From Asparagopsis taxiformis (Eukaryota; Rhodophyta; Florideophyceae; Bonnemaisoniales; Bonnemaisoniaceae), in assembly GCA_030407315.1 (NCBI GenBank), contig JALQPE010001774.1, positions 1-64,000 on the forward strand: a DNA stretch of 64,000 bases, in the 5' to 3' direction. Position numbers and translations under genes: made by a program. The notes beneath the pieces were generated by a model. It made no database searches. It worked only from the letters and a program-made list of their open reading frames with translations, and was not told where the DNA came from. This document shows, piece after piece, positions 13,270 to 52,271 of the stretch (the first letter of the stretch is position 1; each line of letters starts with the position of its first letter).

Positions 13270-13346
13270 AATTAGTGCAGTAAATGTGACGTTGACTAGA
13301 AGGTTTATCATGTAGTACATTATCAATAGAGTGCTGCGATTTAGAT

Positions 13347-16300
13347 TTATTCTTCTTCATTATCATCTGTGAATTGGTAATCAGTGTTGGTGTAGAAGCG
13401 GTTGAGATAGAAACGGTGGTCCGACCAGTGCATTTGTTTCGTAAATGGCTTGACTGGAAAGTTACTTCGTACGATGTGCACGGTGCCAGATATAGTAGAT
13501 GCAGGAATGAGGTCAAACCAAGGACCACCTGCACTGTGGGATGCAGTGTCATTGCTGTCAACGGATCCGTTGTCCGGGTCCCATGTGGACCACTTTAAAC
13601 AAATGCACCCAAGTGATTTTTCCACAGCGGTTTTTGGGGCAAAGCAGGTCATATACTGAACGAAAGCGAGTTCTACAGGTTGAAACAGGTTTGGAGACTG
13701 CAGGCGTACCAGTGCCAGGACGCGCCCTACCCATATGGTTCTGTAGTCATCGGCAGTTCCGGAGATGACGACAAAGGAGTACTGCGATCTCTTTGCGGGG
13801 CCGAACGATGAAGTTGCAAAGACGCGCTGCTGCTTGTGCCTCGACACGTTTGTGGGGCGAAGCATGCCACTGTGCGGGTCAAAGTCGTCGGCATCTGGGA
13901 CGTACCCTCCCATGACGTAGGCGGACTTTACCACGGTGACGGAAATGTCCATGTCATGTATTGGAGGGCCTTCTGCCGTGGCGCGCAGTCTAGCGAGGGT
14001 GAGGAACGCTTGTGCAGCTGTGTCACCGAGTTGCTGGAATAGCGTTATGGTGCCAGACGGGAACGAGGAGTTGTGCAGCGGCAAAAGAGTGGCAGGATCG
14101 GGCTGTCCGTCGATATCTGCAACGAGGAGGGTTGCATCGGGCAGCAGGGAGGCAAAGTCGTGCAGTGCAACGGTGAATCCGTCGCGAACGAGTACTGCAC
14201 CGTCTGTGGGCGATATCATGCGTGCGTTTCCCAATGTGTTCGATGGGGTATGACCAGTTGGAGTGGCCAAGGAGAATTCCATGTGGCGAATAGTCTCTTC
14301 CATGGCTGTGGAGCGCCTTCGAGAGGTTTTCCTATAACTCTGTTTGAACAGAAGATGCGAGTGTTCGTAGGGGCCTGCATCAATGTGTTCCAGGGCGCCA
14401 TATCTCTGCAAGTCACCGGGAAGATGGTCTAGAAGATGGAACTTGAAAGTTTTGAGACCTGTGGTGTGGAATGGGCCGAGGGTGGAGAGCATTGATTGTT
14501 TGAAATAGGAAATGGAGTTCTGGAGGCTTTCTAGTTCGGCGGCAGTCCAGTGCTTGATGCGACCGCGTTTCATGACCCATGCGACGAGGTCAGAGTATTG
14601 CGTGCAGATGGAAGTGAGGGGGGCTGTATCTACTTCGTCACAGCATGTGTCAATGAATGCTGCGATGAAAGGGAACACCATGTCGACATGGTGATAGTCT
14701 TTGGCTGCGAGCATGCCGCGTATGCCGTCCTCCGTGAAGAGGCCGTTCAAATTGGTGCCCTTCTCACCCTTGGAGAAGTCGACATGAAGACCGGTGATGT
14801 AGTAGTCGCGTTCGATAGCGGACAGAATGCTGTTTGAGCCGGCGAGGATGGATTTTTTCACCTTCTTGAAGGTGCGAGGTGTCCCGGAATGGGAGGCAGT
14901 GGTGGTGAGGTCTGGGGAGCTGAGGCGGTGGACAATGCACTGTTTGATGAGCTTTGAGATGCCGAGGTGGAGATTGTGCAGAGGCTCGAAGGAGAAAATG
15001 TTGTAGGGGTCTAGGGGACTGTTGGTGGGTAAAAGAGCGGTCGATTCGAGGACAGAGTGTTGTTCGAGGAGGGAGAGAGCTTCGAGCGGAGCAGTTGTAT
15101 GCTCCTGAGCGCTCTCTTGGCGTGCAGAGCGTGTATCATCGAGGGAGCGGGGCTGGTGTGGCGCGCTGGATTCAAGTTGAGTGGCGGGGATGTAGCAGCG
15201 GTGGCAGGGATGTGTGGTGGTAGTGCTGTTGCGAGTGCATGAGAGCTCTTTGGCCTCTGGAAAGTCGCAGCAATAATTGGCTAGGATGGGAAAGCATTGG
15301 CGGGCAGTTGCAGTGGAGTCTGTGCAGGGGAACCCGGAAGAGAACGCGGTGGATAGGGACGAAAACACTTTTTCGAGTGCTTTATGAAGAATATCAATTT
15401 TGCGAGCGCGACTAGCAGAACTAGAGGTTGTCGGCATTTCATCACCGAACAAGGCGTTGGACGAAGGGTTAACAATGTACGGAAGATACCCGACGATGGT
15501 GAGGCCGGTACGGATGCAGTGGCGACGGAGGGGGGCGGAGAAGTTGAGCAGTGTGACGTGTATGGGGTATGCGACGATTGCGGAGCTCTTGAGGCTTGTG
15601 CTGCTCTTGTCGGAGTACACTTGGAGGAGGCCGGCAAAGGAGGAAGCGGTGGGATCATTTTCCTCTGCCCATACGACCTGTGGATCTTCCGAGAGCTGCA
15701 CGCGCTGTCTAGTAACCTGGTGCAGCGTTTTCGCGAATTCTGTGTGTAGGGGATGAGAAAATATTGCGGTGCCGTCTGGGGCGGTCTGTGGGGAGGGGTG
15801 GAAGAGAGTATTTTGGTCGTTAGCCAGTGCTAACTGCCTGCGGAGCATGTCGACTGGGTCGCGGAGGTACAGCTGTGCCGAGTACTTACCAGTTTTGTCT
15901 GGAATGATGTGGCTCTTGTAACCTTCGGTGCGGAAATGTGTTTCGACCATGGAAGCGGTAACGTGGCGACATTCTTCTACGGTGCGAACGGCGCTGTTGA
16001 ACTTTTCTAGGGAGAATGCGGGGTCTTGTAGGATGGTGATGACTTCGCTCACGCGGCCAGCGCCGGCCTTGTACTCGAGGGTTGTGAGACTGGCGGCGAG
16101 GGATTGCACGAGGAGGTCTGCGCGGGAGGGGGTTGAGGTTGGTGGCAGTGAAGCGTCACAGGGTGAGTCGCTGGAGGAAGCACGACCAGATTCTGGGTCT
16201 GGGGAGCTGGGTTGCGGGGAATCATGGTCGCCGTTTCGAGCAGGCTCATGGGTGACGGCAGGGACACGAGCGTTGTTGAAATGTTGGGGAGAGGGGTTGA

Positions 16301-16385
16301 AACGGTAGCGACACGTTCGCTCATGCAGCGCGAGCGCATAAGCATCTACGCAGTAGTAGAAGCACCCTTCATACTTGCATTCCAT
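13347..16385 (-). CDS. Plavaka/CMC-like transposase with N-terminal C2HC finger
   Basis: This intact 1012-aa ORF starts at ATG 16385. Residues 3-25 form a zinc-finger-like motif (CKYEGC ... HERTC). A Ser/Pro-rich linker follows. The core has the block VYSDKSSTSLKSS...AYPIHVTL (about 256-279), typical of Plavaka-type transposases, in which a catalytic Asp sits in a YSDKT-like string. Later come FEPLHNLHLGISKL and EHSHLLFKQSYRKTSRR, matching the downstream acidic/His block and the H...K..Y..TSRR string of the family. The enzyme should cut and move the element by DDE chemistry in the nucleus. No frameshift is seen, unlike the copy on the right. Confidence 0.8.
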   Translation of the reverse strand: MECKYEGCFYYCVDAYALALHERTCRYRFNPSPQHFNNARVPAVTHEPARNGDHDSPQPSSPDPESGRASSSDSPCDASLPPTSTPSRADLLVQSLAASLTTLEYKAGAGRVSEVITILQDPAFSLEKFNSAVRTVEECRHVTASMVETHFRTEGYKSHIIPDKTGKYSAQLYLRDPVDMLRRQLALANDQNTLFHPSPQTAPDGTAIFSHPLHTEFAKTLHQVTRQRVQLSEDPQVVWAEENDPTASSFAGLLQVYSDKSSTSLKSSAIVAYPIHVTLLNFSAPLRRHCIRTGLTIVGYLPYIVNPSSNALFGDEMPTTSSSASRARKIDILHKALEKVFSSLSTAFSSGFPCTDSTATARQCFPILANYCCDFPEAKELSCTRNSTTTTHPCHRCYIPATQLESSAPHQPRSLDDTRSARQESAQEHTTAPLEALSLLEQHSVLESTALLPTNSPLDPYNIFSFEPLHNLHLGISKLIKQCIVHRLSSPDLTTTASHSGTPRTFKKVKKSILAGSNSILSAIERDYYITGLHVDFSKGEKGTNLNGLFTEDGIRGMLAAKDYHHVDMVFPFIAAFIDTCCDEVDTAPLTSICTQYSDLVAWVMKRGRIKHWTAAELESLQNSISYFKQSMLSTLGPFHTTGLKTFKFHLLDHLPGDLQRYGALEHIDAGPYEHSHLLFKQSYRKTSRRRSTAMEETIRHMEFSLATPTGHTPSNTLGNARMISPTDGAVLVRDGFTVALHDFASLLPDATLLVADIDGQPDPATLLPLHNSSFPSGTITLFQQLGDTAAQAFLTLARLRATAEGPPIHDMDISVTVVKSAYVMGGYVPDADDFDPHSGMLRPTNVSRHKQQRVFATSSFGPAKRSQYSFVVISGTADDYRTIWVGRVLALVRLQSPNLFQPVELAFVQYMTCFAPKTAVEKSLGCICLKWSTWDPDNGSVDSNDTASHSAGGPWFDLIPASTISGTVHIVRSNFPVKPFTKQMHWSDHRFYLNRFYTNTDYQFTDDNEEE

Positions 16386-16982
16386 GTCGAGTTTTGACGC
16401 AAAAGGGAGGATTGCGAGCTGAACAGGGGAGACTGTGCCGTCCAGATGCGACCAATTTTATTTTTGTGGTGCTTTCGAGACTTGGAATGTAACGTGTTCG
16501 TAGTTTTTTGGGTAGTAGTTTTGTGCTCACTCCAGCTGACATCCCAACGGTGGAATTTAACCGAGAGTTCAATCATTTCCAACTGTTACATCACATTGCG
16601 TGCTGGCAACGTGTGCATGGAAGGACGAACGACTGCCCTGGGAGATGAATTTTCAATTAATTCATTTGTAATAATAAACTTTTTTATTTCCAAACTTCGT
16701 GGAATCTGAATGTGCTTTACAGCGGATATGCCACAGATCATGTAAGGAAAGCAAATGGATTCTCATATATATGATTATATGTTTATATTCGTTGTTCTCG
16801 ATCCGGATCTCTTTGTTCGGGGAATCAGAGACCATGGCTTGGGCCATACTCAATCTCACTGCCGGCGATGATTTCGAGTATGCACAGCAAGACTTAAGCG
16901 GACGCAGAAAGCTGTCCGGTCGACGCCGCAGGCTCCACTCCGCCCTCATCACCGACTGATCTTCTTTGACCGACTTTGCTTT
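16386..16982. other. Transposase upstream region
   Basis: This is non-coding sequence upstream of the transposase, present nearly unchanged in the inverted copy (about 58990-59586). It is AT-rich near 16640-16690 and probably holds the transposase promoter. I cannot point to a specific site. Confidence 0.5.
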
Positions 16983-17020
16983 GTACGTGCGCGAATCTTG
17001 ATCAAGATTCGCGCACGTAC
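16983..17020. repeat. 38-bp perfect palindrome
   Basis: The 19-base half GTACGTGCGCGAATCTTGA is followed directly by its exact reverse complement, with no spacer. The other transposon copy keeps it at 58952-58989 with one mismatch. A second palindrome, ACCCTCGAGGGT, lies about 20 bp further on in both copies. Confidence 0.95.
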
Positions 17021-17039
17021 CTTCGTTCCATCCTCTACC

Positions 17040-18100
17040 CTCGAGGGTATGCGTTGAGGGAAGCGTGGGTTTTGAGTCTGACTATTTCCGTTGATGCGAT
17101 ATTTTTCATGGGAAGCCTGTTGACTGATGGTGTGTATTGAGCGGAGGATGGAAGAGAGGTACGTGAAGTTTTGAAAGTATGCTGTGAGGGAAGGTTGATT
17201 TTGAGTCTGACTGTTGTGGTTGATTCCGATGTTGTGTAGATGATGCAGGAATGTTGATGACGGAAGGTAAGTTTCATTGAGTGCCAAGATGTGCTTTGCG
17301 AAGATATGGACTGCTGACTATGATTATTGTTAGTTGCAAGGTTTTTGGATCATGGTTTGTATTGTGTGTAGGATGGATGAGAGGTACATTTGCGAGTTCT
17401 CAGGGTATGTAGCGAGGGAAACGTTGGTTTTCAATCTGACTGTTGCGATTGAATCCGATGTTGCGTAGGTGATGGAGGAATAGTGATGACGGAAGGTAAG
17501 TCACATTGGGCGCCCAGACCGGTTGTGCGAAGATGCGGAATGCTGACTACTTTTCTTGGCTACACGATTACGTGATTTATGGTTTTTATTGTGTGCAGGA
17601 TGGAACAGGTAAAGTAAGTGTGCGAGTTTTGAAAGTAAGCAGCGAGGGAAGGTTGGTTTTGAGTCTGACTATTTCCGTTGATGCGATATTTTTCATTGGA
17701 AGCCTATTGAGTCATGGTGTGTATTGTGTGGAGCGAAGGTAAGTGTGCGAGTTTTGAAAGTATGCTGTGATGGAAGGTTGGTTTTGAGTCTGACTGTTGT
17801 GGTTGATTCCGATGTTGTGTAGATGATGCAGGAATGTTGATGACAGAAGGTAAGTTTTACTGAGCACCAAGACTTGTTTTGCGAAGATATGGACTGCTGA
17901 CTTTGATTATTCATTGCAAGGTTTTTGGATCATGGTTTGTATTTTGTGTAGGATGGATGATTCAGTCATCCTCTCGGAGAGGTAAGTAAGGGAGTTTCTA
18001 GGATATCTGTCGTGGTAAGCGTTGCTTTTGAGTCTGACTGTTGTGGTTGATTCTGATGTTGTGTATGTGATGCAGGAGTGGTGAAGCAGGAACGGCAGGA
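17040..18100. repeat. Imperfect subterminal repeats of the transposon
   Basis: The block GATTCCGATGTTGTGTAG followed by GATGATGCAGG recurs, with small changes, near 17223, 17452, 17803 and 18050. ATTTCCGTTGATGCGATA recurs near 17087 and 17668. The units are irregular, roughly 200-350 bp apart. Each carries GGAAGGTAAGT-like strings, but no coherent reading frame crosses them. Confidence 0.7.
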
Positions 18101-18665
18101 CTGAAGGAGAGTGAAGAAGGGATGTAGGAAGATGGGGAATGAAGCTGTGAGGTGTTTCTGGTATGTGTATATTTTGGGGCATACGATAGAAGTGAGAGTG
18201 CGTTTCAAGTGGTGTAAGATTTTGCTGACCATGTTCGTGTTTGATGTCTTGATGATTTAATGGGCTGGGGTGGTGTCGAGGAAAGCGGGGATGGTATTGG
18301 GAAGGAGCGTATTTTTTGTAATCTAGGTCGTGAGGGTTCTTGCAGTATGTGCGGATGGTGGTGCATGGCGTTCGGATGGTAGGGAGAACGCGATAGTGAG
18401 GGAGATGGGTGATCGACGATATGCTGACAGGTATTTTGTATTCTGGCTGGATACGTATTTCCTATTCTAACCGGGTATTTATTTCCTATTCTAACCGGGT
18501 ATTTATTTCCTATTCTGACCAGATATGTATTCCCTATTCTAGAGAGACGTATTGTATACGAGCAGTTTCCTAAATGAGAGAATAAAATACGGTCCGATAT
18601 GGGCCCTGAATTTACCATCCGCTGTAATTTCTTCCCTCCCGGTTTTCGCTGATATATTGTATACT

Positions 18666-19052
18666 GGATGTCAGGTCCTAGTATTCCGCCATATGTACTA
18701 GAGAAAGTGGATGTCGGGTCCTAGTATTCCGCCATATGTACTAGAGAAAGTGGATGTCGGGTCCTAGTATTCCGCCATATGTACTAGAGAAAGTGGATGT
18801 CGGGTCCTAGTATTCCGCCATATGTACTAGAGAAAGTGGATGTCGGGTCCTAGTATTCCGCCAAACGTACTAGAGAAAGTGGATGTCGGGTCCTAGTATT
18901 CCGCCATATGTACTAGAGAAAGTGGATGTCGGGTCCTAGTATTCCGCCATATGTACTAGAGAAAGTGGATGTCGGGTCCTAGTATTCCGCCATATGTACT
19001 AGAGAAAGTGGATGTCGGGCCCTAGTATTCCGCCATATGTACTAGAGAAAGT
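18666..19052. repeat. 43-bp tandem array, nine copies
   Basis: Each unit begins GGATGTCGGGTCCTAGTATT and ends TACTAGAGAAAGT. Most units are identical; one has CCAAACG for CCATATG. The array has no unique spacers, so it is not CRISPR. It lies about 130 bp from the transposon end; the inverted copy has six more diverged units. The unit end (ACTAGAGA) recurs near the terminus itself, which suggests transposase binding sites. Confidence 0.9.
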
Positions 19053-21279: not shown

Positions 21280-22767
21280 TCATTTGCGTGGCGGGCGATG
21301 GCGCGTCCTCTTGTCCGCTAACCGCGAACTTGAGCGACTGGGTGGCGTCGGGCGCGGTTTGGTGACGCTTGTCGCTTCCGGAGTGCGCTTCTTCGGCGGG
21401 GGCCCCCGGCGGTTGCGTGACGTAGCGCGGCCGGTCTCGATGTCGCGTCCGGCGGCGTTCGAAGCAGTTCGCTTTAGTTCCCTGCGAAAACGTGCGACAA
21501 TAGGTGCGGGTAGTGAGCCCACGGGTTCCCAGGTATCATCGCGCGGCGAATATCCTTTCCAGCGCACTCGGAAAACGGCTTCCCCAGCATCGTCAATGCC
21601 TTCGGCCATGAGTCTGTCAATCATAAATTCGCGCGTTCCGTACCCAGACTCGGGGTTAACTTTGCGCGCAGCTTCGAGGTCGCGTTCGCCGCGCTGCGTA
21701 GCGTCGTTAGCGACTTCCGTTGCGGTAGTATCTTCCTCGTCGTCTAGCGAGGCCGGCGCGGGCGTCGCGTTACGCGGTGCGACACGGATGCGGTCGGAAC
21801 TAACGGGCTCGGGCACGCCATCTATTACGATTTCGTAGGTATGGCCACGACAGCCTATTACAGGGAAAGGGCCGGAGACGGGGTAGTCCAATTTCGACGC
21901 GCGTGCTCCTTCGTCTCGCTGCGCTTGAGTCGTCGCTCCGGCGCGGGTATCCAAGTATACTTGGTCACCCACTTTGATTTCTTTGTTCACTGCGCGTACG
22001 CCGCGGTCGAAATCCCGTTTATATCGCGCTTGCGCTTTCTTCAGCGCGTTTGCTGCGCGCGCGTAGGCGTCCGATAACCTCGCTAGGAATTCCATACGAA
22101 GGAATGGCGTACTGCGAATCGTGTCCACTTGTTCCGTTCCCAGCGACACAGGGTAGCGCGTGAGCGTAAGATCGAACGGCGATGTATTCGTCGAGCGGTG
22201 TATCGCGCGGTTGTAGGCGTACGCCAGCGCATCCAAATGCTCGTCCCAGTCCTTTCGCTCTTCGTCGACGTAATGGCGCAGCGTCGCGACGATGGTACGA
22301 TTCATTCGCTGTACTTGTCCGTTCGATTGCGGGTGATACGTCGTCGTGAATATGTTTCGCGTTCCCATAAGCGCGCACGTTTCCTGAAACAGCTTCGAGC
22401 GGAACTGCGGTCCATTGTCCGAAAGTAGCGTGCGCGGCGGTCCGTAAACGAAAACCCAATCTCGGCAGAACGCTTTTGCGACGGCGAGCGCGGATACGCG
22501 TCCGAGCGCGATGAGTCGGTAGAGTTTGCTATAGCGGTCTGCGATTACGAGTACGAAGCGGCGTTGGCGTGGAGTCTCGGGCGGCGGCCCAAAGATATCG
22601 ATAGCGACGTCTTCGAGCGGGCGCGTTGCGGGAAATAGCTTCAGGGCGTTCGTGTGGCGATATTGCGTAACGCGGTTACGTGCGCACGCGTCGCACTGTC
22701 TCACTGTAGTGTAGACGTCTACGCTCATCATCGGCCAGTAGTACGCACGTCGAATTGCGTCGTACAT
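21280..22767 (-). pseudogene. Ty3-type integrase with chromodomain (damaged)
   Basis: The zinc-binding HHCC region spans the TGA at 22768-22770: the second Cys pair is CDAC and the His pair lies before the stop. The core shows AIDIFGPP and LLSDNGPQF, which hold the two catalytic Asp residues. At the usual Glu position (family string GQTERVN) this copy reads GQVQRMN, codon CAG, so the third catalytic residue is Gln. A C-terminal chromodomain is clear (FRVRWKGYSPRDDTWEPV), placing the element among chromoviruses, which target chromatin for insertion. The in-frame TGA and the E-to-Q change mean this copy is almost certainly inactive. Confidence 0.85.
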
Positions 22768-33035: not shown

Positions 33036-36000
33036 ATGGCCGACGTCATGGATTCGCCCGACCACACGGCATCCAACTCTGACGATACCAATCCTCCTGC
33101 GCTTCCGGACGACAAACACCCGACCTCCACAACCATTGACATTGAATCTCCCTCGACGACAAAGGACCCCTCCGAGCCCACCGACCGTTCCTACGCATCA
33201 TTCCCCCACGCCTCCGTTGCCCAGTTCCTCAAAGATGTGAAGCAAACCGGTAAACTCGGCTCCGGTCCCGCCGAGCCGCTACCGGCCCGAACCACTGCCG
33301 TAGCGACTGTCATTCGTACCATCCCGTGGATCATGCTCATCGCTCAGGCATTTTGGTCCTCCGGTGTGATGATGATTGCCTATGCTTTCCGCAATGACGA
33401 AGGCTTTTCGTCGCTCTCCGTTCCTTTCTGGACATCCAGCTTCCTCATCTCGTCCTCCATTGTGTATGGTGTCGGTTGGGCACTCTTCGTGCTCCTCGGT
33501 TTCTTCATTCGCGAAGCGTCCAATCGTCATCGCACCGCGCGTGCTACTTGGAATAACACTATGGCACATATGCGAATGCTCATCCGTGACTTTACACAGG
33601 TGTTTGCGGAGGGCCATTGGCATGTCAATGACCGTGATAGAATACTTGCACACATGATGGCATATCCTATCGCGCTCAAGATGATGCTTCGCGGAGAGAG
33701 AGAACGCGAGCAATTGGAGAAAATTCTCCACCCACTCGATGTGGATGATGTCATTCAATCTCAAGAAATGCATATTCATTGCACACGCGTCATAAGAGCG
33801 TATATGTCCTCATCAGAAACCGAATCCATGGCTGGTTTTCAACCTGCAACTCCCCAGTCTGCTGCAGGAGACAGTATCCAGTTCTACCAGATAGGAATCG
33901 TTGACAGCGTTGATGCCATCGCATCAAAGCTTCTTCGTATTGCCGAGTTCCAACCCGCCTTGGGCTACGTCAATCACCTTCGAATCTTTCTCTACATCTG
34001 GCTCTTCTTCCTCCCCCTTGCCTTGGTTGAGACCAGTGGATGGTGCGTCGATTTTGTCCTTCTGCGTTATCCATGCGCTGACTGAATCAATATTCCAATT
34101 GGAATGAGACATGTATTCTGACTTTCATTTCTTTCCCGTGTGTATTCCATCTGCCCGCCACTCTGTAGGTTCACTACTCTGTGGGCTGTTCTCATCACCT
34201 ATGGAATCGGTATGCTTTTCGTTGTCGCAAATGCCCTCAATGAGCCTTTCGGATTCGATCTCCAGGACATTAAACTCAATGCACTGGCCAGTGCAGCTGC
34301 ATTGCGTTTCTTGAACATGTGGTACGAAGAACGTCCACTCGTACATAACATCAAGTTCGAACACAACACTCCGTACTGGCTTGAAGGGGAATGCTCAGAC
34401 GGTAAGCAACCTCCCAAGAAGAAGGGTATCGTCGGATTTTTCAGCAGACTTCGTCTACCATCCATAAGCTTGGAGCTCATTCTGGCACTGCTGGTCTTCC
34501 TTGCCTGGGTATCCTTCATTGTGTTCCTTACTCGTGGTGTTTCAGAAGACAGGGAGGATTCCGAACCAGGGTGTCGCTGGTGGTGTCTCTATATCCCACT
34601 CAGTACATCTACTACCTCCTATGTTGGGCTTGGTGTGTTCCTTCTGATGGGATTCTGGATCAATGATGCGTATGCACGGTACTGGAATGGACTGCAACTA
34701 TGGGAAACATCCCTGAAGCCCAACATAAGCACGCTGGTCACAGAGATTGGCATCATGTGCAAGAGCGGGACGTGGCATCCGAGGGATATTGAGCGTCTCT
34801 TTTCTCATATCGTAGCAGTGGCATATGCGAGCAAGGAGAGGCTTCGTGATAGCCGTGACCTATCTGATTTGGAAGGAATCCTTGCACCAGAAGACATCCA
34901 GGCTATGTCAGAGTCCAAAGACCTTGTCGATTACTGTCTTCGTGTTGTATATTCGTATATGACTAGTTTGGACAGGCGCGACAAAGACACTCTTTTGTCC
35001 CAAAAGCGTCCGTTAGACAACTCTCTAGTTATTCTGATGGACCGTTTCAAGGGCATTGAGGATGCGATGAATGCATGCAATACCATGCGGACAGTTCCCA
35101 TTTCTCCTTCGTTTACACTCCATCTCCACATCTTCGCGGCTTTGTGGCTGGCACTGTTCCCGTTGGCCTTTGTCCAGGAGAATGGATTCCTCTCGTATCT
35201 CTACCTCCCCCCGATTGCGTACTCCGTAGTCAAGCTGCTCTCGATGGGTAATGAGCTGTCAGACCCGTTCGGCACTGACCGAAATGATATTCCTCTCGAC
35301 ATGTTCTGTGCGGAGATCAAGAACACAGTGCATGAAATATACAAGGAGACGCGCCCTGGAGCCGAGGGGTATGTGCACGCATGCAGTGGATATGGAGAAG
35401 GGTTCAAGAAGCCAGTATCCAAGCCTCAGAGATCTGATAATGGTCACACAACCCACATGACGGTGAAGCAGGCAGTGCAGAAGATTTTCTGCCATTTGCC
35501 GCCGGTACCGTTATTATCGCAGGTACTGATTACATTGTGGATTATCGGTGCAGTGTTCATTTCGTACGGTCTGTCGTTTGCATGGGATGATGAACGAAGG
35601 AACCTTAAATGCCGTGAATGGTGCAGCCCAGTAGATATCGACAATGGCATTCTGCTGGAGATTGGTTTTGCATTGTTCCTGATTCTTTCATTCCGAGCAT
35701 CGGATGCGATGGGGAGGTACGAGAACGCGGGATCGCTGATATCGAACCTTGAAAAAAATTTGAGGAGTGCTATCATGGAAACGATGAATGGATACCAAGC
35801 TGGTTCTTGGCATGAAAATGACAAGGAACGGTTGTACGCCCACTTAATTCAAATTCCGCTGCTTCTGAGGGACCAACTTCTCGGCACGAATCAATCTGAT
35901 GAGCAGCGACTACTTTCAGATGAAGACTATGCCAAATGTATCAATAGTGCAGATCCAATTCGTCGCTGCATCGCGACAGCAAATTCATACTTGCTGTCCA

Positions 36001-38974
36001 TTGACGTTCCCGGCAAGGAATCGGATTTGAACGTGATGAAGAAACAACCATTTGTCCCTGCTTCATTTATGTATACGTTGTACATCAGATGTCACAACGT
36101 TAGTCACATTGTAAGCCAATTGAGGAGCATCAAGAGGTTCCCCGTCGTGAGGAGTTATACCAGTCATCAACGACTGTTCACTATTCTCTGGTTGGTTCTC
36201 CTGCCATTTGGTATGACGGCACGCACCGGCTTCTTCACCATTCTTTGGGCACCGATGATTGCATACGGTATCCTCGCGCTGGAGTCACTTGCAACAACGC
36301 TGGTCGACCCGATCGGCGACGATGACCTCGACGTTCCTGTGGACATGATGTTCACTGAGATGGCTGAAAGGTTGGTCGAAGCCGTACGCTCTTCAAAGTG
36401 GGACTACAAGCACCACGTAATCGAGTCCATTCCAGAGGGAGATGCCCGCATCGGGTCGCAGCTTGCTGGAAAGGAGGTGGTTGACGAGTATGATCTTGCG
36501 AAATTCTCAACAGAGGAGGTTGATGCGAGTAACTTTGCCGAGAAGCCGGTGCGGCAGTTTTCTGGTCCCAAGGAGCCTATGACGAAGCCGACGTTCTTCG
36601 CTCATTTGGTGCGCAGTGTTCCATGGTGGGCGTTGGTTGCTGTGGCTGCATGGACGGCAGTGGGAGTGCTGGTGTCCTATTTGTCCCGACGAGATGCAGA
36701 AGATGTGAGATGGTGGGAGTCGAGGCTGTCGATTGATGGCATTGTTGTGACATATGTTGGATTTCCAGGTAAGAGATCACGTTGCTTGGCCTGAGCGAAT
36801 GAATGAGGGAATTGATGTGTGTGATAGTCTAACAGATGTATATTTTCTTGGTTTTGTTTTTTTATTTGTATGTTTCCATTGAGCAGCCTTTCTGTTGCTC
36901 GGATTCTTCGTTCAAGCAGCGTTCGATCGATACTCGGAAGCAGGAAATGTATGGGGAGACGACCTTCGAGCGGCTTGTCATTCACTGTCCGTGCAATGGC
37001 TGATGTTGCCCAAGGCCGGGACATGGCATGAGGGCGACAATGATCGAGTACTGGGACACATTGCGGCAGTTCCGATTGCACTGAAGATGGAGTTGCGAGA
37101 TGAGAGGAATGTGAGAGAACTGAAGGGGCTGTTATCTGAGAAGGACATTGGAAGGATAATGTGTGCTGACAGCATGTCGGATCACTGTGTAGATGTCATC
37201 CGTGCGTACTACTATTCGGGACCAAGTCGCCCTGACGGGTTTGGTACTTCTTCTCCTGTTGTCAAGGGAACTCGAACCACTATTCTTAAATTTGAGCTGC
37301 AAGCCTTGGAAGAAGCATTGCGGCGGTGCAAGTTTATCAAGTCGTTCCCGATTGCCCGTGGCTTCATGGTTCTGCTCCGAGCAATGATTGGTATCTGGTT
37401 TATCTTGGTTCCGTTTGTTCTCGCTGAATCGAATGGTATGTTGTTGTTCAATGTTGAAGTTGGCCCTGTTTGACTGTCCGAGTCTTTTCGAAGTGAAAAT
37501 GCTAACCAGATTAACCTGACGCCTATGTGTTGGCATTCAATGTTATTGTATACAGGATGGTTTGCAATTCTATGGGTTCCAATCATTGGCTATGGGCTCA
37601 TTGGGTAAGTTGGAAATGGACTGAGATGGTTTAACACCAAGATGCGAGCGGCTCACTTTGGTTGATAGATGAACTAACCTACTCGAATATGATTTTATGC
37701 ACCGTACATGAATGTGTTGCAGAATGTACTCGATTGCAGATGAAATTCAGCAGCCGTTCGGGAGGGACCTGAACGACTTCAATTTGGACAAGATGGCAGA
37801 TAGCATTGTTTCTGGTGTTCTATTCGTGCAGCAGAACTATCGTGGAGGACATGAGAGCTTAGTTGTGGAATCTGTGCAGCATTCTGGAAGAGCGTGGGAG
37901 CATTTCATGGAAGAAGATTCTGTTGCTGAAGATGTGTATTCGAGGTTGGCGGATACTGAGAAGAACATTGGATCTGTATCGCTTAGGACATCGCTTTCGA
38001 TGATTATTCATGCTGTACCTCTGTGGATGCTGGTTGGTGTTGGGATATATTCTGGGTTGTCGGTTGTGGGGGCATGGGGGCTGAGTCGACGGTGGCCATT
38101 GAACGAGTCATGTTCGCCAGCGTTCTGCGTACCGATTGCGATTGATAGCGTTGTGAAGGAGTATGTTGGATTTGCATTGTTCCTGTTGCTAGGCTTCCGT
38201 CTGTACGACAGTCACTGGCGATATGTGTCAGCGCTGGAAGCGTGGCGAGACGGTATTCTGCGAGACACACGGTTGTTCGGAAACAGGATATTCGAGTCAA
38301 TGCCACAAGGTACACTGCACAAGGGAGACTCTGAAAGAATTGCTGCGCATCTGGCAGCGTTTTCGATTGTGACGGCGGCACGTCTGCGAAGGGAGAAGTC
38401 ATGTGCTGAGATTCTGAAGGATGTGATGAGTGCAGAAGACATTGAGAGGGTGGAGCGGGTCGAGGAGAAAGGAGATTACTGTCTAGATGTAGTGCGAGGA
38501 TATTTGACTGCATATGACTTGAAGTCCCCGACATGGAAGCAGATGCCTTGCAGTGGTCTCATCCACTGGATCCTGATGTATCAACTTGGTCGCTTCAAAG
38601 ATTACGCTGCCGCATGTGAGAGGATGATCAGTATTCCGCTACCGTTTGGGTACGTACAGCACATTCGCATCTTTCTGGTGATCTGGCTGATAACGCTGCC
38701 GTTCGGACTGGTGGAAACGTCTGGATGGTGGACAACGCTGTGGGTGGTGATCATTGCGTATGGTGTGATTGGTATTGAGAGGTGGTCTACGGAGCTTGCG
38801 GACCCGTTCGGAACTGATCTGTCTGATTTGCCGCTGGGCAAGTTCCGAGTGGACACGGTGAAGAGTCTGCGAACGAATCTGAAATGGTTCTACAACGGGA
38901 ATGAGAGTGTTGTGAAACCGGAGCGAACAGCGTTTCCACTGGAAGAAATGTACGCGAAGACGATTGATGAGTAG
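33036..38974 (+). CDS. Five-domain bestrophin-like channel, copy 1 (4 introns)
   Basis: Exons are 33036-34042, 34169-36768, 36887-37435, 37556-37604 and 37723-38974. All four introns have GT-AG ends, are 118-126 nt and keep the frame, giving 1818 aa. Bestrophin (PF01062) anion channels have four membrane helices per subunit and assemble as pentamers. This chain contains five tandem domains. Each has a first helix, a second helix ending in a FxLLGFxxxxxxxRY-like string, a cytosolic helical part, a P-rich third helix and a fourth helix followed by a D/EPFGxDxxDxxL box. The boxes lie at residues about 375, 700, 1049 (DPIGDDDLD), 1413 and 1763. The N-terminal roughly 60 residues are Ser/Thr/Pro/Asp-rich and probably cytosolic. 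The start ATG has a good context (ACCATGG). An inverted paralog lies at 46330-52271. Confidence 0.88.
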
Positions 38975-40718: not shown

Positions 40719-43700
40719 ATGTATTCGTTTGCCCGCAGACTAGCCGGCGTTTACGAAGACGCAGACTTTTGCGTTGAACGCAACACGTCCGCTGCCGCGC
40801 TGCTACTGCAGATATGCATCGACGAACAGCGCCACACCGGCGCCATGTACGATTATGCAGAGCTGATTTTCAATGAAATTACCGCCGCCGATGCCTCCGA
40901 TAACGTCCCCACCTTCAAACCTTTCGACCCTTTCAATCCGCTCCTTCCGCCCAAACCCGCTCTCGCACTCAACCTGTACCAGGCCAGCGCGATTGAAGGC
41001 GGAAACCTAAACGCTATGGTGAATGTTGCGAGAATCTTGTCGGACGGCAACTTGGATGAAACGTCTTTCGATATTTCCGCTGCCGTTCGTTGGTACGAAA
41101 TGTATCTCCAACGCTGCGATGATCTGGAAGCTGGATGCGAGCTTGCTGACATTCTTTCTTCTCGAGCACCATATGTTTGCACTGATTTACCGCACGCGAT
41201 CTGCTTGTATGAGAGAAGACTACAAAATGGTCATATACTGGGTGAAGCGCGCTTTTTTGTCATCAAGCTTGCAGAACTGCTCATCATGAACATACATGGT
41301 GTGCAGAAAGATGTACCACGGGCTGTGGGTCTGTGTGAGTTATTCGCTCACCTTTGTTCCGGATCCGGTATTGAGAAACTACGCGAGCTTGCGAACAAGG
41401 TGGCGCGTGGTACAACGATAATATCAAAAGACGTGCCACTTGCGATGAACTTGTTTCAGATATGCATTGATCCAAATCTCCTCTATCCTCCCGATGCAGA
41501 GGCTGTTGCTTCCCTCGTGCAAATTCTTCTCACAGAGGATATGCGCACGATGGATCACGTCAATCGCGCACTACAACTGTGTGATAAGTTTCTCGGTAGC
41601 GCACATTGTGGCTTGGTACTTGGATATCGCCTTGTTGACATTGCCAGGCAACTTTCGCATGGTCCACCAATCATTGTAAAAGGCATTCCGCTTTCCATTC
41701 GTCTGCTGAAAATGTGCATGGCAAGCTCAAGGCATACCTGTGCTACTTTTGCTCTCATTGAACTTCTCATAGAAGGTATTCCCGGCTTCGAGAGGGACAC
41801 CGCTTATGCGCTCGAGATATGCACAGATGCAATCGAGGAAATGTCAGAGAACTATTTGATCGAACGATTGGTTCCCCTCTGTAGAGAGATTTTTGACGAT
41901 CCATCCAACCGGGGAAAGAATGCATTATTTGCCTCAGAAGTGCTCACGCTATGTGTCAGCCTTACATACGATATGGATGCTGCTATTTTGCTAACCCAAG
42001 TCCTGGGCACTGGAGCGCCGGGAATCGAAGGAAACGAAGATCGAGCACTACAAATGTGCAGAGAAGTCATTAGGAAGGTGTGTGCCAAAAAATTTGTTTC
42101 CAAGATAGTGAAACTTGCGGGTGAAGTCTTCAGAGGTACTGCAAGGCTACTAAAGGATGCAAAATTTGCTATGAGATTGCTTGAGATGTGCATCGAAATT
42201 ACGGGCGATTCAAATGCAACTATTCTTCTCATTGAAATGCTTATCTATGGCGGTCCCGGTTTCAACAAAAACCCAAGGCGAGCACTGCAGTTGTGCAAGA
42301 ACCATATGGAAACAGAAACGTATGAGGATCACTTTATCCATAGGCTAGTTATTCTTGTCCAAAAGATATCGTTTGGTGCATCAAACATTCCAGAAGGTGC
42401 GCCTCTTGCTCTACGCTTACTGGAAATATGTCTTGCAAAATGCACAAGTATGAAAGTTTCTCTCGCTCTCATAGAACTGCTTGTTTCTGGCGCGTTGGGA
42501 GTTGGTCGAAACACCCGCCGGGCTATACAAGTATTTGAGCGCGTCCTGGAAGCCAAGCCGGACTTTAATGATATCTCAATAGTTGCAAACGAAATAATGA
42601 GAGGGTCATCAAGAATTATGCGAGACGCACCGCTTGGAGTATATCTTTTGGAGATGTACATCAAAGAAGGTTCCGACCCGGCAGCTAAGCTGGCCCTTGC
42701 GGATATTTTGATAACTTCTGCACCTGGAATAGAACGGGATACTAGTCGAGCCGTACAGCTTTGCATGGAATACATCAAGGAGTCAGGGAGTAATACAGGT
42801 GTAGGGCGTCTGGCTCGAAAGCTTGCTTGGAGTGAATGTGGAAATGTGAGAGACATGAAGCTTGCCTTGAGCCTCTGCGAAAAGTGTGAAAATGCAGACA
42901 GTGGGAATGATGGTATTCTTGTTCTTGTTGAAATTCTGTTGTCTGGGGCAGCGGGAAGTGAAAGGAACATCCCTCGTGCTATATGCTTGTGCAGGAAGTA
43001 TCTTATGGAATCGGACGGAACAGATGGCGTTGGTGATGTGAAAGATATTGCAAACAAGGTAGCTCGTGGATCTGGTGTTGTGAGGGACACATCACTTGCC
43101 ATACGATTATATGAATTATGTATTGAACGACAGAACGAAAAGGGTTGTTTTTCTCCATCAAATGGATTAATGCCGCTTGTTGAAATGCTCACCACTGGTT
43201 CATGTGGAGTGGAGAGGGATGTGCATCTCGCCTTACAACTTTGTGAGAAGTACACAAAGACTTGGCAGTGGTATGAAGTTGTGAAACTTGCGGAGGATTT
43301 CACTTTTGGTGCGAATGATGTGGTTCAAGACGTGCCAATTGCAATGAAGATATGGGATGTTTGTATCAGATGCGCAAAGAATCCAGACTACAAAATCCAT
43401 CTGGCAGAGATTCTTCTAATTGATGGGATGGGAATCCTACAAGATATTGGTAGAGCCATGGAATTATGTGAACAGTTCCTCATCGAGTGCATAATGACGA
43501 AAACGCCCATCACTGAGGTCCTAGAGCTAGCAAGGAGAGTGTGGGGAATGCGAAGTGTAATGACTGAAGGGGCTTTGATAGCAAAAAGCATCTGTGAGAT
43601 GTGTATCAAATTTTACTATGATGAAAATGCGATGGTGCTTTTGGCGGAGATGTTCGCGTGTGGGTCGGATGGGATTGAGAGAAGTGTTGAAAGCGTTGTT

Positions 43701-43988
43701 CAATTGTGCGAGCAACATCTCGTGGAGTGTTCTAATTGCAGAGGTGTTGAAAATGTTGCCGAGAAGATTGCGAAAGGCTTAGCAGGAATTGCAGTGGATT
43801 TACCGCTTGCCGTACGGTTGTATGATATGTGCGTGAAGAGGGGCAGCTCTCGCGCGATGTTCTATCTATCTGGTTTACTGAAGCGTGGTTGTGAAGGTGT
43901 TGAGGTTGATGAAGAACGATCGTTAGCTCTTTATAAGCGGGCGATAGAGGGGGGTTTCGATGGAGAATGGGTAAATGAAGGTGGATGA
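40719..43988 (+). CDS. Large Sel1-like repeat protein
   Basis: This uninterrupted 1089-aa ORF uses the first Met after the in-frame TGA. It is built almost wholly of degenerate Sel1-like/TPR-like helical repeats. The recurring pattern is Ala-x-x-Leu-x-Glu-x-Cys-Ile, a helix LAEILLxG, then GIERD followed by RAxQLCE; examples are near residues 320-360, 470-500, 620-720 and 900-930. The last copy is the most canonical (AVRLYDMCVKRGSSRAMFYLSGLLKRGCEGV). Such repeats form solenoid scaffolds for protein-protein binding, for example in ER-associated degradation and signalling. No enzymatic domain, signal peptide or membrane helix is evident, so the partner is unknown. Confidence 0.85.
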   Translation: MYSFARRLAGVYEDADFCVERNTSAAALLLQICIDEQRHTGAMYDYAELIFNEITAADASDNVPTFKPFDPFNPLLPPKPALALNLYQASAIEGGNLNAMVNVARILSDGNLDETSFDISAAVRWYEMYLQRCDDLEAGCELADILSSRAPYVCTDLPHAICLYERRLQNGHILGEARFFVIKLAELLIMNIHGVQKDVPRAVGLCELFAHLCSGSGIEKLRELANKVARGTTIISKDVPLAMNLFQICIDPNLLYPPDAEAVASLVQILLTEDMRTMDHVNRALQLCDKFLGSAHCGLVLGYRLVDIARQLSHGPPIIVKGIPLSIRLLKMCMASSRHTCATFALIELLIEGIPGFERDTAYALEICTDAIEEMSENYLIERLVPLCREIFDDPSNRGKNALFASEVLTLCVSLTYDMDAAILLTQVLGTGAPGIEGNEDRALQMCREVIRKVCAKKFVSKIVKLAGEVFRGTARLLKDAKFAMRLLEMCIEITGDSNATILLIEMLIYGGPGFNKNPRRALQLCKNHMETETYEDHFIHRLVILVQKISFGASNIPEGAPLALRLLEICLAKCTSMKVSLALIELLVSGALGVGRNTRRAIQVFERVLEAKPDFNDISIVANEIMRGSSRIMRDAPLGVYLLEMYIKEGSDPAAKLALADILITSAPGIERDTSRAVQLCMEYIKESGSNTGVGRLARKLAWSECGNVRDMKLALSLCEKCENADSGNDGILVLVEILLSGAAGSERNIPRAICLCRKYLMESDGTDGVGDVKDIANKVARGSGVVRDTSLAIRLYELCIERQNEKGCFSPSNGLMPLVEMLTTGSCGVERDVHLALQLCEKYTKTWQWYEVVKLAEDFTFGANDVVQDVPIAMKIWDVCIRCAKNPDYKIHLAEILLIDGMGILQDIGRAMELCEQFLIECIMTKTPITEVLELARRVWGMRSVMTEGALIAKSICEMCIKFYYDENAMVLLAEMFACGSDGIERSVESVVQLCEQHLVECSNCRGVENVAEKIAKGLAGIAVDLPLAVRLYDMCVKRGSSRAMFYLSGLLKRGCEGVEVDEERSLALYKRAIEGGFDGEWVNEGG

Positions 43989-46329: not shown

Positions 46330-49300
46330 CTATTCGTCAATCGTCTTCGCGTACATTTCTTCCAGCGGAAACGCTGTTCGCTCCGGTTTCACAACACTCT
46401 CGTTCCCGTTGTAGAACCATTTCAGATTCGTTCGCAGACTCTTCACCGTGTCCACTCGGAACTTGCCCAGCGGCAAATCAGACAGATCAGTTCCGAACGG
46501 GTCCGCAAGCTCCGTAGACCACCTCTCAATACCAATCACTCCATACGCAATGATCACCACCCATAGCGTTGTCCACCATCCAGACGTTTCCACCAGTCCA
46601 AACGGCAGCGTTATCAGCCAGATCACCAGAAAGATGCGAATGTGCTGTACGTACCCAAACGGTAGCGGAATACTGATCATCCTCTCACATGCTGCAGCAT
46701 GGTTCTTAAACGGTGCGAGATAGAAGATTATCATCCAGAGTATCAGTCCACTGCAAGGCGTCTGCTTCCACGTCGGGGACTTCAAGTCATATGCAGTCAA
46801 ATATCCTCGCACTACATCTAGACAGTAATCTCCTTTCTCCTCGACCCGCTCCACCCTCTCAATGTCTTCTACACTCATCACATCCTTCAGAATCTCAGCA
46901 CATGACTTCTCCCTTCGCAGACGGGCCGCCGTCACAATCGAAAACGCTGCCAGATGCGCAGCAATTCTTTCAGAGTCTCCCTTGTGCAGTGTACCTTGTG
47001 GCATTGACTCGAATATCCTGTTTCCGAACAGCCTCGTGTTCTGCAGAATACCGTCTCGCCACGCTTCCAGCGCTGACACATATCGCCAGTGACTGTCGTA
47101 CAGACGGAAGCCTAGCAACAGGAACAATGCAAATCCAACATACTCCTTCACAACGCTATCAATCGCAATCGGTACGCAGAACGCTGGCGAACATGACTCG
47201 TTCAATGGCCACTGTCGACTCAGCCCCCATGCCGCCACAACCGACAACCCAGAATATATCCCAACACCAACCAACATCCACAGAGGTACAGCATGAATAA
47301 TCATCGAAAGCGATGTCCTAAGCGATACAGATCCAATGTTCTTCTCAGTATCCGCCAACCTCGAATACACATCTTCAGCAACAGAATCTTCTTCCATGAA
47401 ATGCTCCCACGCTCTTCCAGAATGCTGCACAGATTCCACAACTAAGCTCTCATGTCCTCCACGATAGTTCTGCTGCACGAATAGAACACCAGAAACAATG
47501 CTATCTGCCATCTTGTCCAAATTGAAGTCGTTCAGGTCCCTCCCGAACGGCTGCTGAATTTCATCTGCAATCGAGTACATTCTGCAACACATTCATGTAC
47601 AGTGCATAAAATCATATTCGAGTAGGTTAGTTCATCTATCAACCAAAGTGAGCCGCTCACATCTTGGTGTTAAACCATCTCAGTCCATTTCCAACTTACC
47701 CAATGAGCCCATAGCCAATGATTGGAACCCATAGAATTGCAAACCATCCTGTATACAATAACATTGAATGCCAACACATAGGCGTCAGGTTAATCTGGTT
47801 AGCATTTCCACTTCGGAAAGACTCGGACAGTCAAACAGGGCCAACTTCAACATTGAAAAACAACATACCATTCGATTCAGCGAGAACAAACGGAACCAAG
47901 ATAAACCAGATACCAATCATTGCTCGGAGCAGAACCATGAAGCCACGGGCAATCGGGAACGATTTGATAAACTTGCACCGCCGCAATGCTTCCTGCAGGT
48001 TCTCAACTTCGTATTTAATTTGCGTCGTCCGAGAGCCTTTGATCACAGGCGAAGAAGTACCAAATTCATCAGGGCGACTCAATCCGGAGAAATAGTATGC
48101 GCGGATGACATCTACACAGTGATCCGACATGCTGTCAGCACACATTATCCTTCCAATGTCCTTCTCAGATAACAGCCCCTTCAGTTCTCTCACATTCCTC
48201 TCGTCTCGCAACTCCATCTTCAGTGCAATCGGAACTGCCGCAATGTGTCCCAGTACTCGATCATTGTCGCCCTCATGCCATGTCCCGGCCTTGGCTAACA
48301 TCAGCCATTGCACGGACAGTGAATGACAAGCCGCTCGAAGGTCGTCTCCCCATACATTTCCTGCTTCCGAGTATCGGTCGAACGCTGCTTGAACGAAGAA
48401 TCCGAGCAACAGAAAGGCTGCTCAATGGAAACATACAAATAAAAAAACAAAACCAAGAAAATATACATCTGTTAGACTATCACACACATCAATTCCCTCA
48501 TTCATTCGCTCAGGCCAAGCAACGTGATCTCTTACCTGGAAATCCAACATATGTCACAACAATGCCATCAATCGACAGCCTCGACTCCCACCATCTCACA
48601 TCTTCTGCATCTCGTCGGGACAAATAGGACACCAGCACTCCCACTGCCGTCCATGCAGCCACAGCAACCAACGCCCACCATGGAACACTGCGCACCAAAT
48701 GAGCGAAGAACGTCGGCTTCGTCATAGGCTCCTTGGGACCAGAAAACTGCGGCACCGGCTTCTCGGCAAAGTTACTCGCATCAACCTCCTCTGTTGAGAA
48801 TTTCGCAAGATCATACTCGTCAACCACCTCCTTTCCAGCAAGCTGCGACCCGATGCGGGCATCTCCCTCTGGAATGGACTCGATTACGTGGTGCTTGTAG
48901 TCCCACTTTGAAGAGCGTACGGCTTCGACCAACCTTTCAGCCATCTCAGTGAACATCATGTCCACAGGAACGTCGAGGTCATCGTCGCCGATCGGGTCGA
49001 CCAGCGTTGTTGCAAGTGACTCCAGCGCGAGGATACCGTATGCAATCATCGGTGCCCAAAGAATGGTGAAGAAGCCGGTGCGTGCCGTCATGCCAAACGG
49101 CAGGAGAACCAACCAGAGAATAGTGAACAGTCGTTGATGACTGGTATAACTCCTCACGACGGGGAACCTCTTGATGCTCCTCAATTGGCTCACAATGTTA
49201 TTAACCTTGGCAAATCTTATATATAACGTGAACATGAACGATCCTGGGATAAATGATTGTTTCTTCATCAAGTTCAAGCCGGATTCTTTGCCGGGAACGT

Positions 49301-52271
49301 CAATGGACAGCAAGTATGTATCTGCTGTTGCGATGCAGCGACGAATTGGATCTGCACTATTGATACATTTGGCGTAGTCTTCATCTGAAAGTAGTCGCTG
49401 CTCATCAGATTGATTTGTGCCGAGAAGTTGGTCTCTCAGAAGCAGCGGAATTTGAATTAAGTGGGCGTACAACCGTTCCTTGTCATTTTCATGCCAAGAA
49501 CCAGCTCGGTATCCGTTCATCGTTTCCATGATGATGGCCCTCAGCTCCTTTTCAAGGTTCGATATCAGCGATCCCGCGTTCTCGTACCTCCCCATCGCAT
49601 CCGATGCTCGGAATGAAAGAATCAGGAACAATGCAAAACCAATCTCCAGCAGAATGCCATTGTCGATATCTACTGGGCTGCACCATTCACGGCATTTAAG
49701 GTTCCTTCGTTCATCATCCCATGCAAACGACAGACCGTACGAAATGAACACTGCACCGATAATCCACAATGTAATCAGTACCTGCGATAATAACGGTACC
49801 GGCGGCAAATGGCAGAAAATCTTCTGCACTGCCTGCTTCACCGTCATGTGGGTTGTGTGACCATTATCAGATCTCTGAGGCTTGGATACTGGCTTCTTGA
49901 ACCCTTCTCCATATCCACTGCATGCGTGCACATACCCCTCGGCTCCAGGGCGCGTCTCCTTGTATATTTCATGCACTGTGTTCTTGATCTCCGCACAGAA
50001 CATGTCGAGAGGAATGTCATTTCGGTCAGTGCCGAACGGGTCTGACAGCTCATTACCCATCGAGAGCAGCTTGACTACGGAGTACGCAATCGGGGGGAGG
50101 TAGAGATACGAGAGGAATCCATTCTCCTGGACAAAGGCCAACGGGAACAGTGCCAGCCACAATGCCGCGAAGATGTGGAGATGGAGTGTAAACGAAGGAG
50201 AAATGGGAACTGTCCGCATGGTATTGCATGCATTCATCGAATTCTCAATACCCTTGAAACGTTCCATAAAAATGACAAGAGCGTTACCCACAGGGCGCGT
50301 TTGGGATAAAACGGTGTCTTTGTCACGCCTGTCCAAACTTGCAAAGTATGAATATACAACACGAAGACAGTAATCGACAAGGTCTTTGGACTCTGACATA
50401 GCCTGGATGTCTTCTGGTGCAAGGATTCCTTCCAAATCAGACAGGTCACGGCTATCACGAAGCCTCTCCTTACTCGCATATGCCACTGCTACGATATGAG
50501 AAAAGAGACGCTCAATATCCCTCGGATGCCACGTCCCGCTCTTGCACATGATGCCAATCTCTGTGACTAGCGTGCTTATGTTGGGCTTCAGGGATGTTTC
50601 CCATAGTTGCAGTCCATTCCAGTACCGTGCATACGCATCATTGATCCAGAATCCCATCAGAAGGAACACACCAAGACCAACGAAAGAGGTCGTAGATCTG
50701 CTGAGTGGGATATAGAGACACCACCAGCGACACCCTGGTTCGGAATCCTCCCTGTCTTCCGAAACACCACGAGTAAGGAACACAATGAAGGATACCCAGG
50801 CAAGGAAGACCAGCAGTGCTAGAATGAGCCCTAAGCTTATGGATGGTAGACGAAGTCTGCTGAAAAATCCGACGATACCCTTCTTCTTGGGAGGTTGCTT
50901 ACCGTCTGAGCATTCCCCTTCAAGCCAGTACGGAGTGTTGTGTTCGAACTTGATGTTATGTACGAGTGGACGTTCTTCGTACCACATGTTCAAGAAACGC
51001 AATGCAGCTGCACTGGCCAGTGCATTGAGTTTAATGTCCTGGAGATCGAATCCGAAAGGCTCATTGAGGGCATTTGCGACAACGAAAAGCATACCGATTC
51101 CATAGGTGATGAGAACAGCCCACAGAGTAGTGAACCTACAGAGTGGCGGGCAGATGGAATACACACGGGAAAGAAATGAAAGTCAGAATACGTGTCTCAT
51201 TCCAATTGGAATATTGATTCAGTCAGCGCATGGATAACGCAGAAGGACAAAATCGACGCACCATCCACTGGTCTCAACCAAGGCAAGGGGGAGGAAGAAG
51301 AGCCAGATGTAGAGAAAGATTCGAAGGTGATTGACGTAGCCCAAGGCGGGTTGGAACTCGGCAATACGAAGAAGCTTTGATGCGATGGCATCAACATTGT
51401 CAATGATTGATATCTGATAGAACTGGATGGAAAGTGCTGTTGGAGACTGAGGAGTTGCAGGTTGAAAACCAGCCATAGACGTAGTTTCTGATGAGGACAT
51501 ATACGCTCTTATGACGCGCGTGCAATGAATATGCATTTCTTGAGATTGAATGACGTCGTCCACATCGAGTGGGTGGAGAATTTTCTCCAGTTGCTCGCGT
51601 TCTCTCTCTCCGCGAAGCATCATCTTGAGCGCGATAGGATATGCCATCATGTGTGCAAGTATTCTATCACGGTCATTAACATGCCAATGGCCCTCCGCAA
51701 ACACCTGTGTAAAGTCACGGATGAGCATTCGCATATGTGCCATAGTGTTATTCCAAGTAGCACGCGCGGTGCGATGACGATTGGACGCTTCGCGAATGAA
51801 GAAACCGAGGAGCACGAAGAGTGCCCAACCGACACCATACGCGATGGAGGACGAGATGAGGAAGCTGGACGTCCAGAAAGGAACGGAGAGCGATGAAAAG
51901 CCTTCGTCATTGCGGAAAGCATAGGCAATCATCATCACACCGGAGGACCAAAATGCCTGAGCGATGAGCATGATCCACGGGATGGTACGAATGACAGTCG
52001 CTACGGCAGTGGTTTGAGCCGGTAGCGGCTCGGCGGGACCGGAGCCGAGTTTACCGGTTTGCTTCACATCTTTGAGGAACTGGGCAACGGAGGCGTGGGG
52101 GAATGATGCGTAGGAACGGTCGGTGGGCTCGGAGGGGTCCTTTGTCGTCGAGGGAGATTCAATGTCAACGGTTGTGGAGGTCGGGTGTTTGTCGTCCGGA
52201 AGCGCCGAGGATGACGACGGGGACGGTGACGGGTGTGTGTCATCCGTACTGGATGGATCCGTAGTGCCCAT
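46330..52271 (-). CDS. Five-domain bestrophin-like channel, copy 2, inverted (4 introns)
   Basis: Exons on the minus strand are 52271-51262, 51135-48536, 48417-47869, 47748-47700 and 47581-46330, giving 1819 aa. Every intron has the same length and position as in copy 1; from 34085 to 38974 the two genes align without a net length change. The N-terminal roughly 25 residues differ (MGTTDPSSTDDTHPSPSP). The five bestrophin domains are the same in order and in their PFGxD-type boxes. Differences are concentrated in one window per domain at about 51389-51484, 50229-50349, 49189-49329, 47979-48099 and 46689-46764. The protein is expected to be an anion channel in a membrane not identifiable from sequence. 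No disabling change is seen. Confidence 0.88.

Follow-up and report, generated by a model that had tools for sequence, protein, structure and literature searches.

A Five-Unit Bestrophin Gene of the Red Alga Asparagopsis taxiformis, Predicted to Encode a Single-Chain Channel

One Spliced Reading Frame Contains Five Bestrophin Units

The window analyzed here, a stretch of 64,000 nt from contig JALQPE010001774.1 of the red alga Asparagopsis taxiformis, contains a five-unit bestrophin gene (copy A) that, judging from its sequence and from structure predictions, quite probably encodes a natural single-chain bestrophin channel. The gene is on the forward strand, and splicing of its five exons yields a single reading frame of 1818 amino acids. 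According to the spliced translation, combined with matches to the unit models for exons 2, 3 and 5, exon 1 (33036–34042) encodes an N-terminal tail and most of unit 1 (U1); exon 2 (34169–36768) the end of U1, the complete U2 and U3 and the start of U4; exon 3 (36887–37435) the middle of U4; exon 4 (37556–37604) 49 bp of U4, which gave a small match to the U4 hidden Markov model (HMM); and exon 5 (37723–38974) the end of U4, the complete U5 and the stop codon. The four introns (34043–34168, 126 bp; 36769–36886, 118 bp; 37436–37555, 120 bp; and 37605–37722, 118 bp) are all of the GT..AG type and have the same borders in a second copy of the gene, copy B; intron 1 lies within U1, at an SGW motif, and intron 2 within the second helix of U4.

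A first-pass annotation of the window had proposed five bestrophin units in one spliced open reading frame (ORF), and this is confirmed by the 1818 amino acid frame together with hmmscan, which found PF25539 (Bestrophin_2) in five stretches of the protein, with 585.7 bits for the whole chain. When the units were cut apart and compared to PF25539 alone, U1 (33300–34316, in two exons; HMM match at 33300–34046) scored 103.7 bits, U2 (34485–35375) 136.6 bits, U3 (35487–36389) 92.8 bits, U4 (36585–37864, in four exons) 129.6 bits and U5 (38009–38914) 144.1 bits, all above the Pfam gathering cut-off of 27; U3, U4 and U5 were delimited by unit-model matches. The units tested have the four-helix transmembrane fold of bestrophins. 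The family named in the annotation, PF01062 (classic Bestrophin), has to be replaced by PF25539: the PF01062 profile matched only one unit of the window protein, with 11.1 bits, below its cut-off of 24.2. A PF01062 search of the A. taxiformis genome gave no match, but it gave none in the control genomes either and so carries no weight. Pfam reported PF25539 alone for the 1818 amino acid protein, and no rhodopsin domain was found in it. The protein contains five P(F/I)G..D boxes, starting at residues 362, 702, 1050, 1413 and 1763; the last four agree with the positions previously assigned (about 700, 1049, 1413 and 1763), whereas the first had been placed at about residue 375.

Copy B and Paralogs in the A. 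taxiformis Genome

Copy B (46330–52271, reverse strand) is a second intact five-unit gene that encodes 1819 amino acids, with the same four introns as copy A and 95.4% protein identity to it; the corresponding inverted duplication (33091–38974 versus 52212–46330) is 96.4% identical. The ratios of nonsynonymous to synonymous substitutions (dN/dS) between copies A and B, obtained with a counting method, were 0.23 for U1 (exon 1 part), 0.16 for U2, 0.25 for U3, 0.17 for U4 (exon 3 part) and 0.22 for U5, which points to purifying selection on every unit between these copies; outside this pair, comparisons were close to or beyond saturation.

In paralog C1040 (11911–17131), the region from the U1 tail to U5 forms a single open frame of 1562 codons; introns 2–4 are absent and a frame gap is kept at the site of intron 1. 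To judge from the sequence, this is a case of intron loss with the reading frame preserved. Additionally, homologs P0005 and P0007 are database-predicted proteins with all five units in one chain. Because of the C1040 frame and these two single proteins, the doubt over splicing is largely removed at the level of the reading frame. The large inverted duplications in the window could raise the suspicion of an artefact of the gene model or of the assembly, fusing separate bestrophin genes, but this is already strongly contradicted by the C1040 frame, by P0005 and P0007, each predicted as one protein, and by annotations made independently in Gracilariopsis chorda and Gracilaria domingensis, and we consider its probability negligible. 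Chance as the source of the five-unit ORF is likewise excluded at the sequence level, because of the family scores, the intact inverted copy B, the low dN/dS values and the homologs found elsewhere.

One contig of the A. taxiformis genome (141-Mb assembly, 3156 contigs) bears nine strong phycobiliprotein matches, which, like the nearest named homologs of the window protein, indicate a red alga. In this genome, ten loci contained all five units, once each and in order. Two of them have broken frames (C649, with several stops, and C2664, with one stop in U5) and were counted for unit order only, while C193, at a contig end, and C2798 and C2169, partly read, were kept outside the count of ten. 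The unit order is also unchanged in the broken pieces from C2452 and C2727, and C2259 shows a partial U2-like match. Some of the loci are probably alleles, because they have equal match scores. The five-unit bestrophin gene family is multicopy in this genome. Separately, C967, C1718, C1719, C1727, C1728 and C2296 share the same U5 score (45.1 bits), with two stops each, and are copies of a repeated, broken bestrophin-unit fragment, perhaps mobile.

The Order of Units Is Conserved in Homologs

A search for homologs with five domains, which the first-pass annotation had proposed, was successful in other species. A full-length search admitting proteins of roughly 1000–3180 amino acids retrieved 41 proteins of 1167–1863 amino acids, mostly deposited without a name; those named include BWQ96_08484 from G. 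chorda (44% identity), a "Bestrophin/UPF0187" protein from G. domingensis and four proteins from Agarophyton chilense. None of these 41 homologs has units beyond five; P0003 gave six matches because its U5 is split. An iterated full-length search, in which 7991 candidates were scored, retrieved at least six proteins; five of them were new (P0076–P0080), all with units U1 to U4, and their U4 matches stop at model positions 246–248, at or near the site of intron 3.

Unit order was examined in 47 proteins larger than 1000 amino acids, comprising the 41 homologs, the five from the iterated search and the window protein. The order was invariant in all 47, with 36 proteins showing U1-U2-U3-U4-U5, nine U1 to U4 and two U2 to U5. 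Many of the 36 contain only the tail of U1, because they begin near the site of intron 1 (U1 matches from model position 254–270). A profile search with single units, scoring the 7996 candidates that shared most words, retrieved at least 34 proteins; among the matches listed for them, the end of U4 plus U5 was found in 16 (P0042–P0055, P0065 and P0067) and a piece of U3 in one (P0066). Three others (P0073–P0075, one of them from Trebouxia) are distant single-domain relatives, with 84–87 bits to the U5 model, and served as outgroup.

Units Cluster by Position

A quick tree was built with 170 units, 165 plus the five from the window, after dropping matches of less than 230 model positions. Every unit was nearest to the window unit of the same position, and the five resulting clades, for U1 to U5, had support values of 99, 99, 100, 100 and 100 and 12, 40, 42, 39 and 37 members. 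A more careful tree of 56 rows, with the units of 12 proteins chosen out of 42 and three outgroup rows, again recovered five clades (bootstrap 96–100); U5 branched first, followed by U3 and then by U1 with U4 plus U2, although the last two forks were weak and the outgroup was long-branched. Because units cluster by position in both trees, the unit duplications most likely predate the divergence of the sampled species, and we saw neither gain nor overwriting of units since then among the sampled units. Each unit also has four to six columns, out of 276 shared columns, with a residue conserved in at least 90% of the sequences at that position and in at most 10% elsewhere; W148 (U1) and W499 (U2) are examples. 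Window units show 25–30% identity to U5. The position-specific clades and the constant order fit the fixed subunit order and five non-identical positions that the first-pass annotation had envisaged for a one-chain channel.

Linkers, Packing and the Hydrophobic Neck

The linkers between unit models have median lengths of 45–64 residues, ranging between species from 53 to 134, 37 to 99, 56 to 78 and 38 to 102 residues, respectively. For structure prediction, which was restricted to 1200 residues, P0039 was folded in place of the full 1818 amino acid chain, and consecutive units were placed with predicted template modeling scores (pTM) of 0.84 and 0.80, so that consecutive units of one chain are confidently predicted to pack together.

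Some algal polyproteins are cut into separate subunits, and the window chain could similarly be processed into five single-domain subunits that assemble as a heteropentamer. The variation in linker length between species would suit such processing, and PMC11453091 includes a dinoflagellate polyprotein among its references. Nevertheless, the four window linkers show no common motif that could serve one protease (best linker-to-linker BLAST E value of 2.2), the units are far from being near copies of each other, given their low identity to U5, and consecutive units are predicted to pack confidently, all of which makes processing very unlikely. The linkers might also reach other chains, in which case rings would mix units from different chains, in domain-swapped or higher assemblies, and one chain would not equal one channel. 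This we regard as unlikely: swapping would require neither the five units of the ten full loci nor the constant order in the 47 proteins, neighboring units within one chain were placed with high pTM, and mixed assemblies of several chains leave unexplained why the count is always five.

All five units of the window protein have the three-residue hydrophobic neck on helix 2 (W-V-F in U1, L-L-F in U2 and F-L-F in U3, U4 and U5), with F as the innermost residue in every case; the neck residues include W148, L490, F836, F1201 and F1552 of U1 to U5, respectively. Neck changes confined to particular units, for example W148 of U1 or the frequent T at the middle position of U4 in relatives, could mean that the bestrophin fold was retained with loss of channel function, for example as a scaffold or sensor; the hydrophobic necks with their inner F and the purifying selection signal in every unit argue against this, and leave it only a very slim chance.

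A Predicted Single-Chain Five-Fold Channel

We consider it probable that one polypeptide forms the whole pentamer, as a single-chain five-fold channel with five non-equivalent positions whose order was fixed prior to the divergence of the sampled red algae and has been maintained ever since. Connected by linkers of about 40–65 residues, five different units of the PF25539 type would fold from U1 to U5 round one pore. Each would contribute one segment of its second helix to the hydrophobic neck, and the polypeptide would take the place of the five subunits that are separate chains in ordinary bestrophins. With its four transmembrane helices, a bestrophin unit has its start and end on one side of the membrane, which makes head-to-tail joining through the observed linkers sterically easy. 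The ring would close between U5 and U1, giving one channel per chain, and the predicted pore would conduct ions, perhaps anions such as chloride or bicarbonate; the fixed order would leave the five positions free to diverge, resulting in an asymmetric pore. The possibility of a one-chain pentameric channel, already raised in the first-pass annotation, is supported by the unit count and order, the clades, the presence of a neck in each unit and the packing of neighbors.

Several points weigh against this prediction. Among the matches listed in the single-unit search, 14 of the 34 proteins (P0056–P0064 and P0068–P0072), including an Agarophyton protein of 420 amino acids, contained U5 alone; these could represent either last exons or genes with a single unit, and entry GFKZ01002204.1 (P0056), whose name presumably is that of a transcript accession, covers U5 alone. 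At the middle position of the U4 neck, 16 of 39 units carry T and 6 carry A. The structure alignments comprised 39 rows each, with P0027 and P0040 excluded from A1 and P0004, P0027 and P0040 from A2. The predicted structures leave out U4, U5 and the full chain, and pTM was the sole measure of packing. In C2798 (40318–61912), unit matches are scattered over some 21 kb, as if the locus were interrupted by inserted sequence, and full splicing was worked out for copies A and B only.

Ordinary bestrophin channels have one domain per chain and five chains, whereas the window protein has five domains in one chain. KpBest from Klebsiella pneumoniae (PDB 4WD7, 4WD8 and mutants) has one domain per chain, in contrast to the five unequal units found here; it is described as a pentamer of one-domain chains (PMC6591409) and as a Na+ channel with an I-I-F neck (PMC8496536). 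VCCN1, the plant thylakoid chloride channel (PDB 7EK1–7EK3), also has one domain per chain and an N-terminal extension, whereas the N-terminus of the window protein, by eye, shows no obvious transit peptide. The nearest fusion is bestrhodopsin (PDB 7PL9), whose bestrophin domain matches U2 (E value of 3.9e-13), but it has one bestrophin per chain and the window protein lacks its rhodopsin domain; PMC12291454 describes a pentameric assembly of chains that each combine a single bestrophin with one or two rhodopsins. The window protein is therefore a known domain family in a new architecture. Multi-domain bestrophin chains were not described in the titles and abstracts among the matches listed from the open-access PubMed Central literature, so the earlier statement that no example had been described stands within that literature.

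In four-repeat voltage-gated Na+ and Ca2+ channels, internal repeats replace separate subunits and their positions specialise; a natural pentameric channel built from a single chain is not known to us. The window protein, if our prediction is true, would follow the same principle as their five-fold counterpart, differing from them in their four-fold symmetry and unrelated fold. If the ring closes, the order and identity of subunits would be genetically fixed and, unlike in homopentamers, the part of each position in gating or selectivity could be tested by mutating a single position. The branching order U5, U3, U1 and U2 with U4, with its last two forks weak, would then offer a series for the passage from a homomer to an asymmetric single chain.

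Other Features of the Window

Between the two convergent bestrophin genes, a single open frame (40719–43985, forward strand) encodes a 1089 amino acid Sel1-repeat protein. A second inverted duplication (11973–18930 versus 64000–57101; 97.1% identical) carries Plavaka transposase ORFs, and an integrase with a chromodomain (21283–22767, reverse strand) is of what we take to be the Ty3-type retroelement kind. Finally, a 595 amino acid ORF (5396–7180, reverse strand) shows an odd fusion of an N6_N4_Mtase DNA methylase (59.3 bits) with a SET domain (31 bits), both above their cut-offs.
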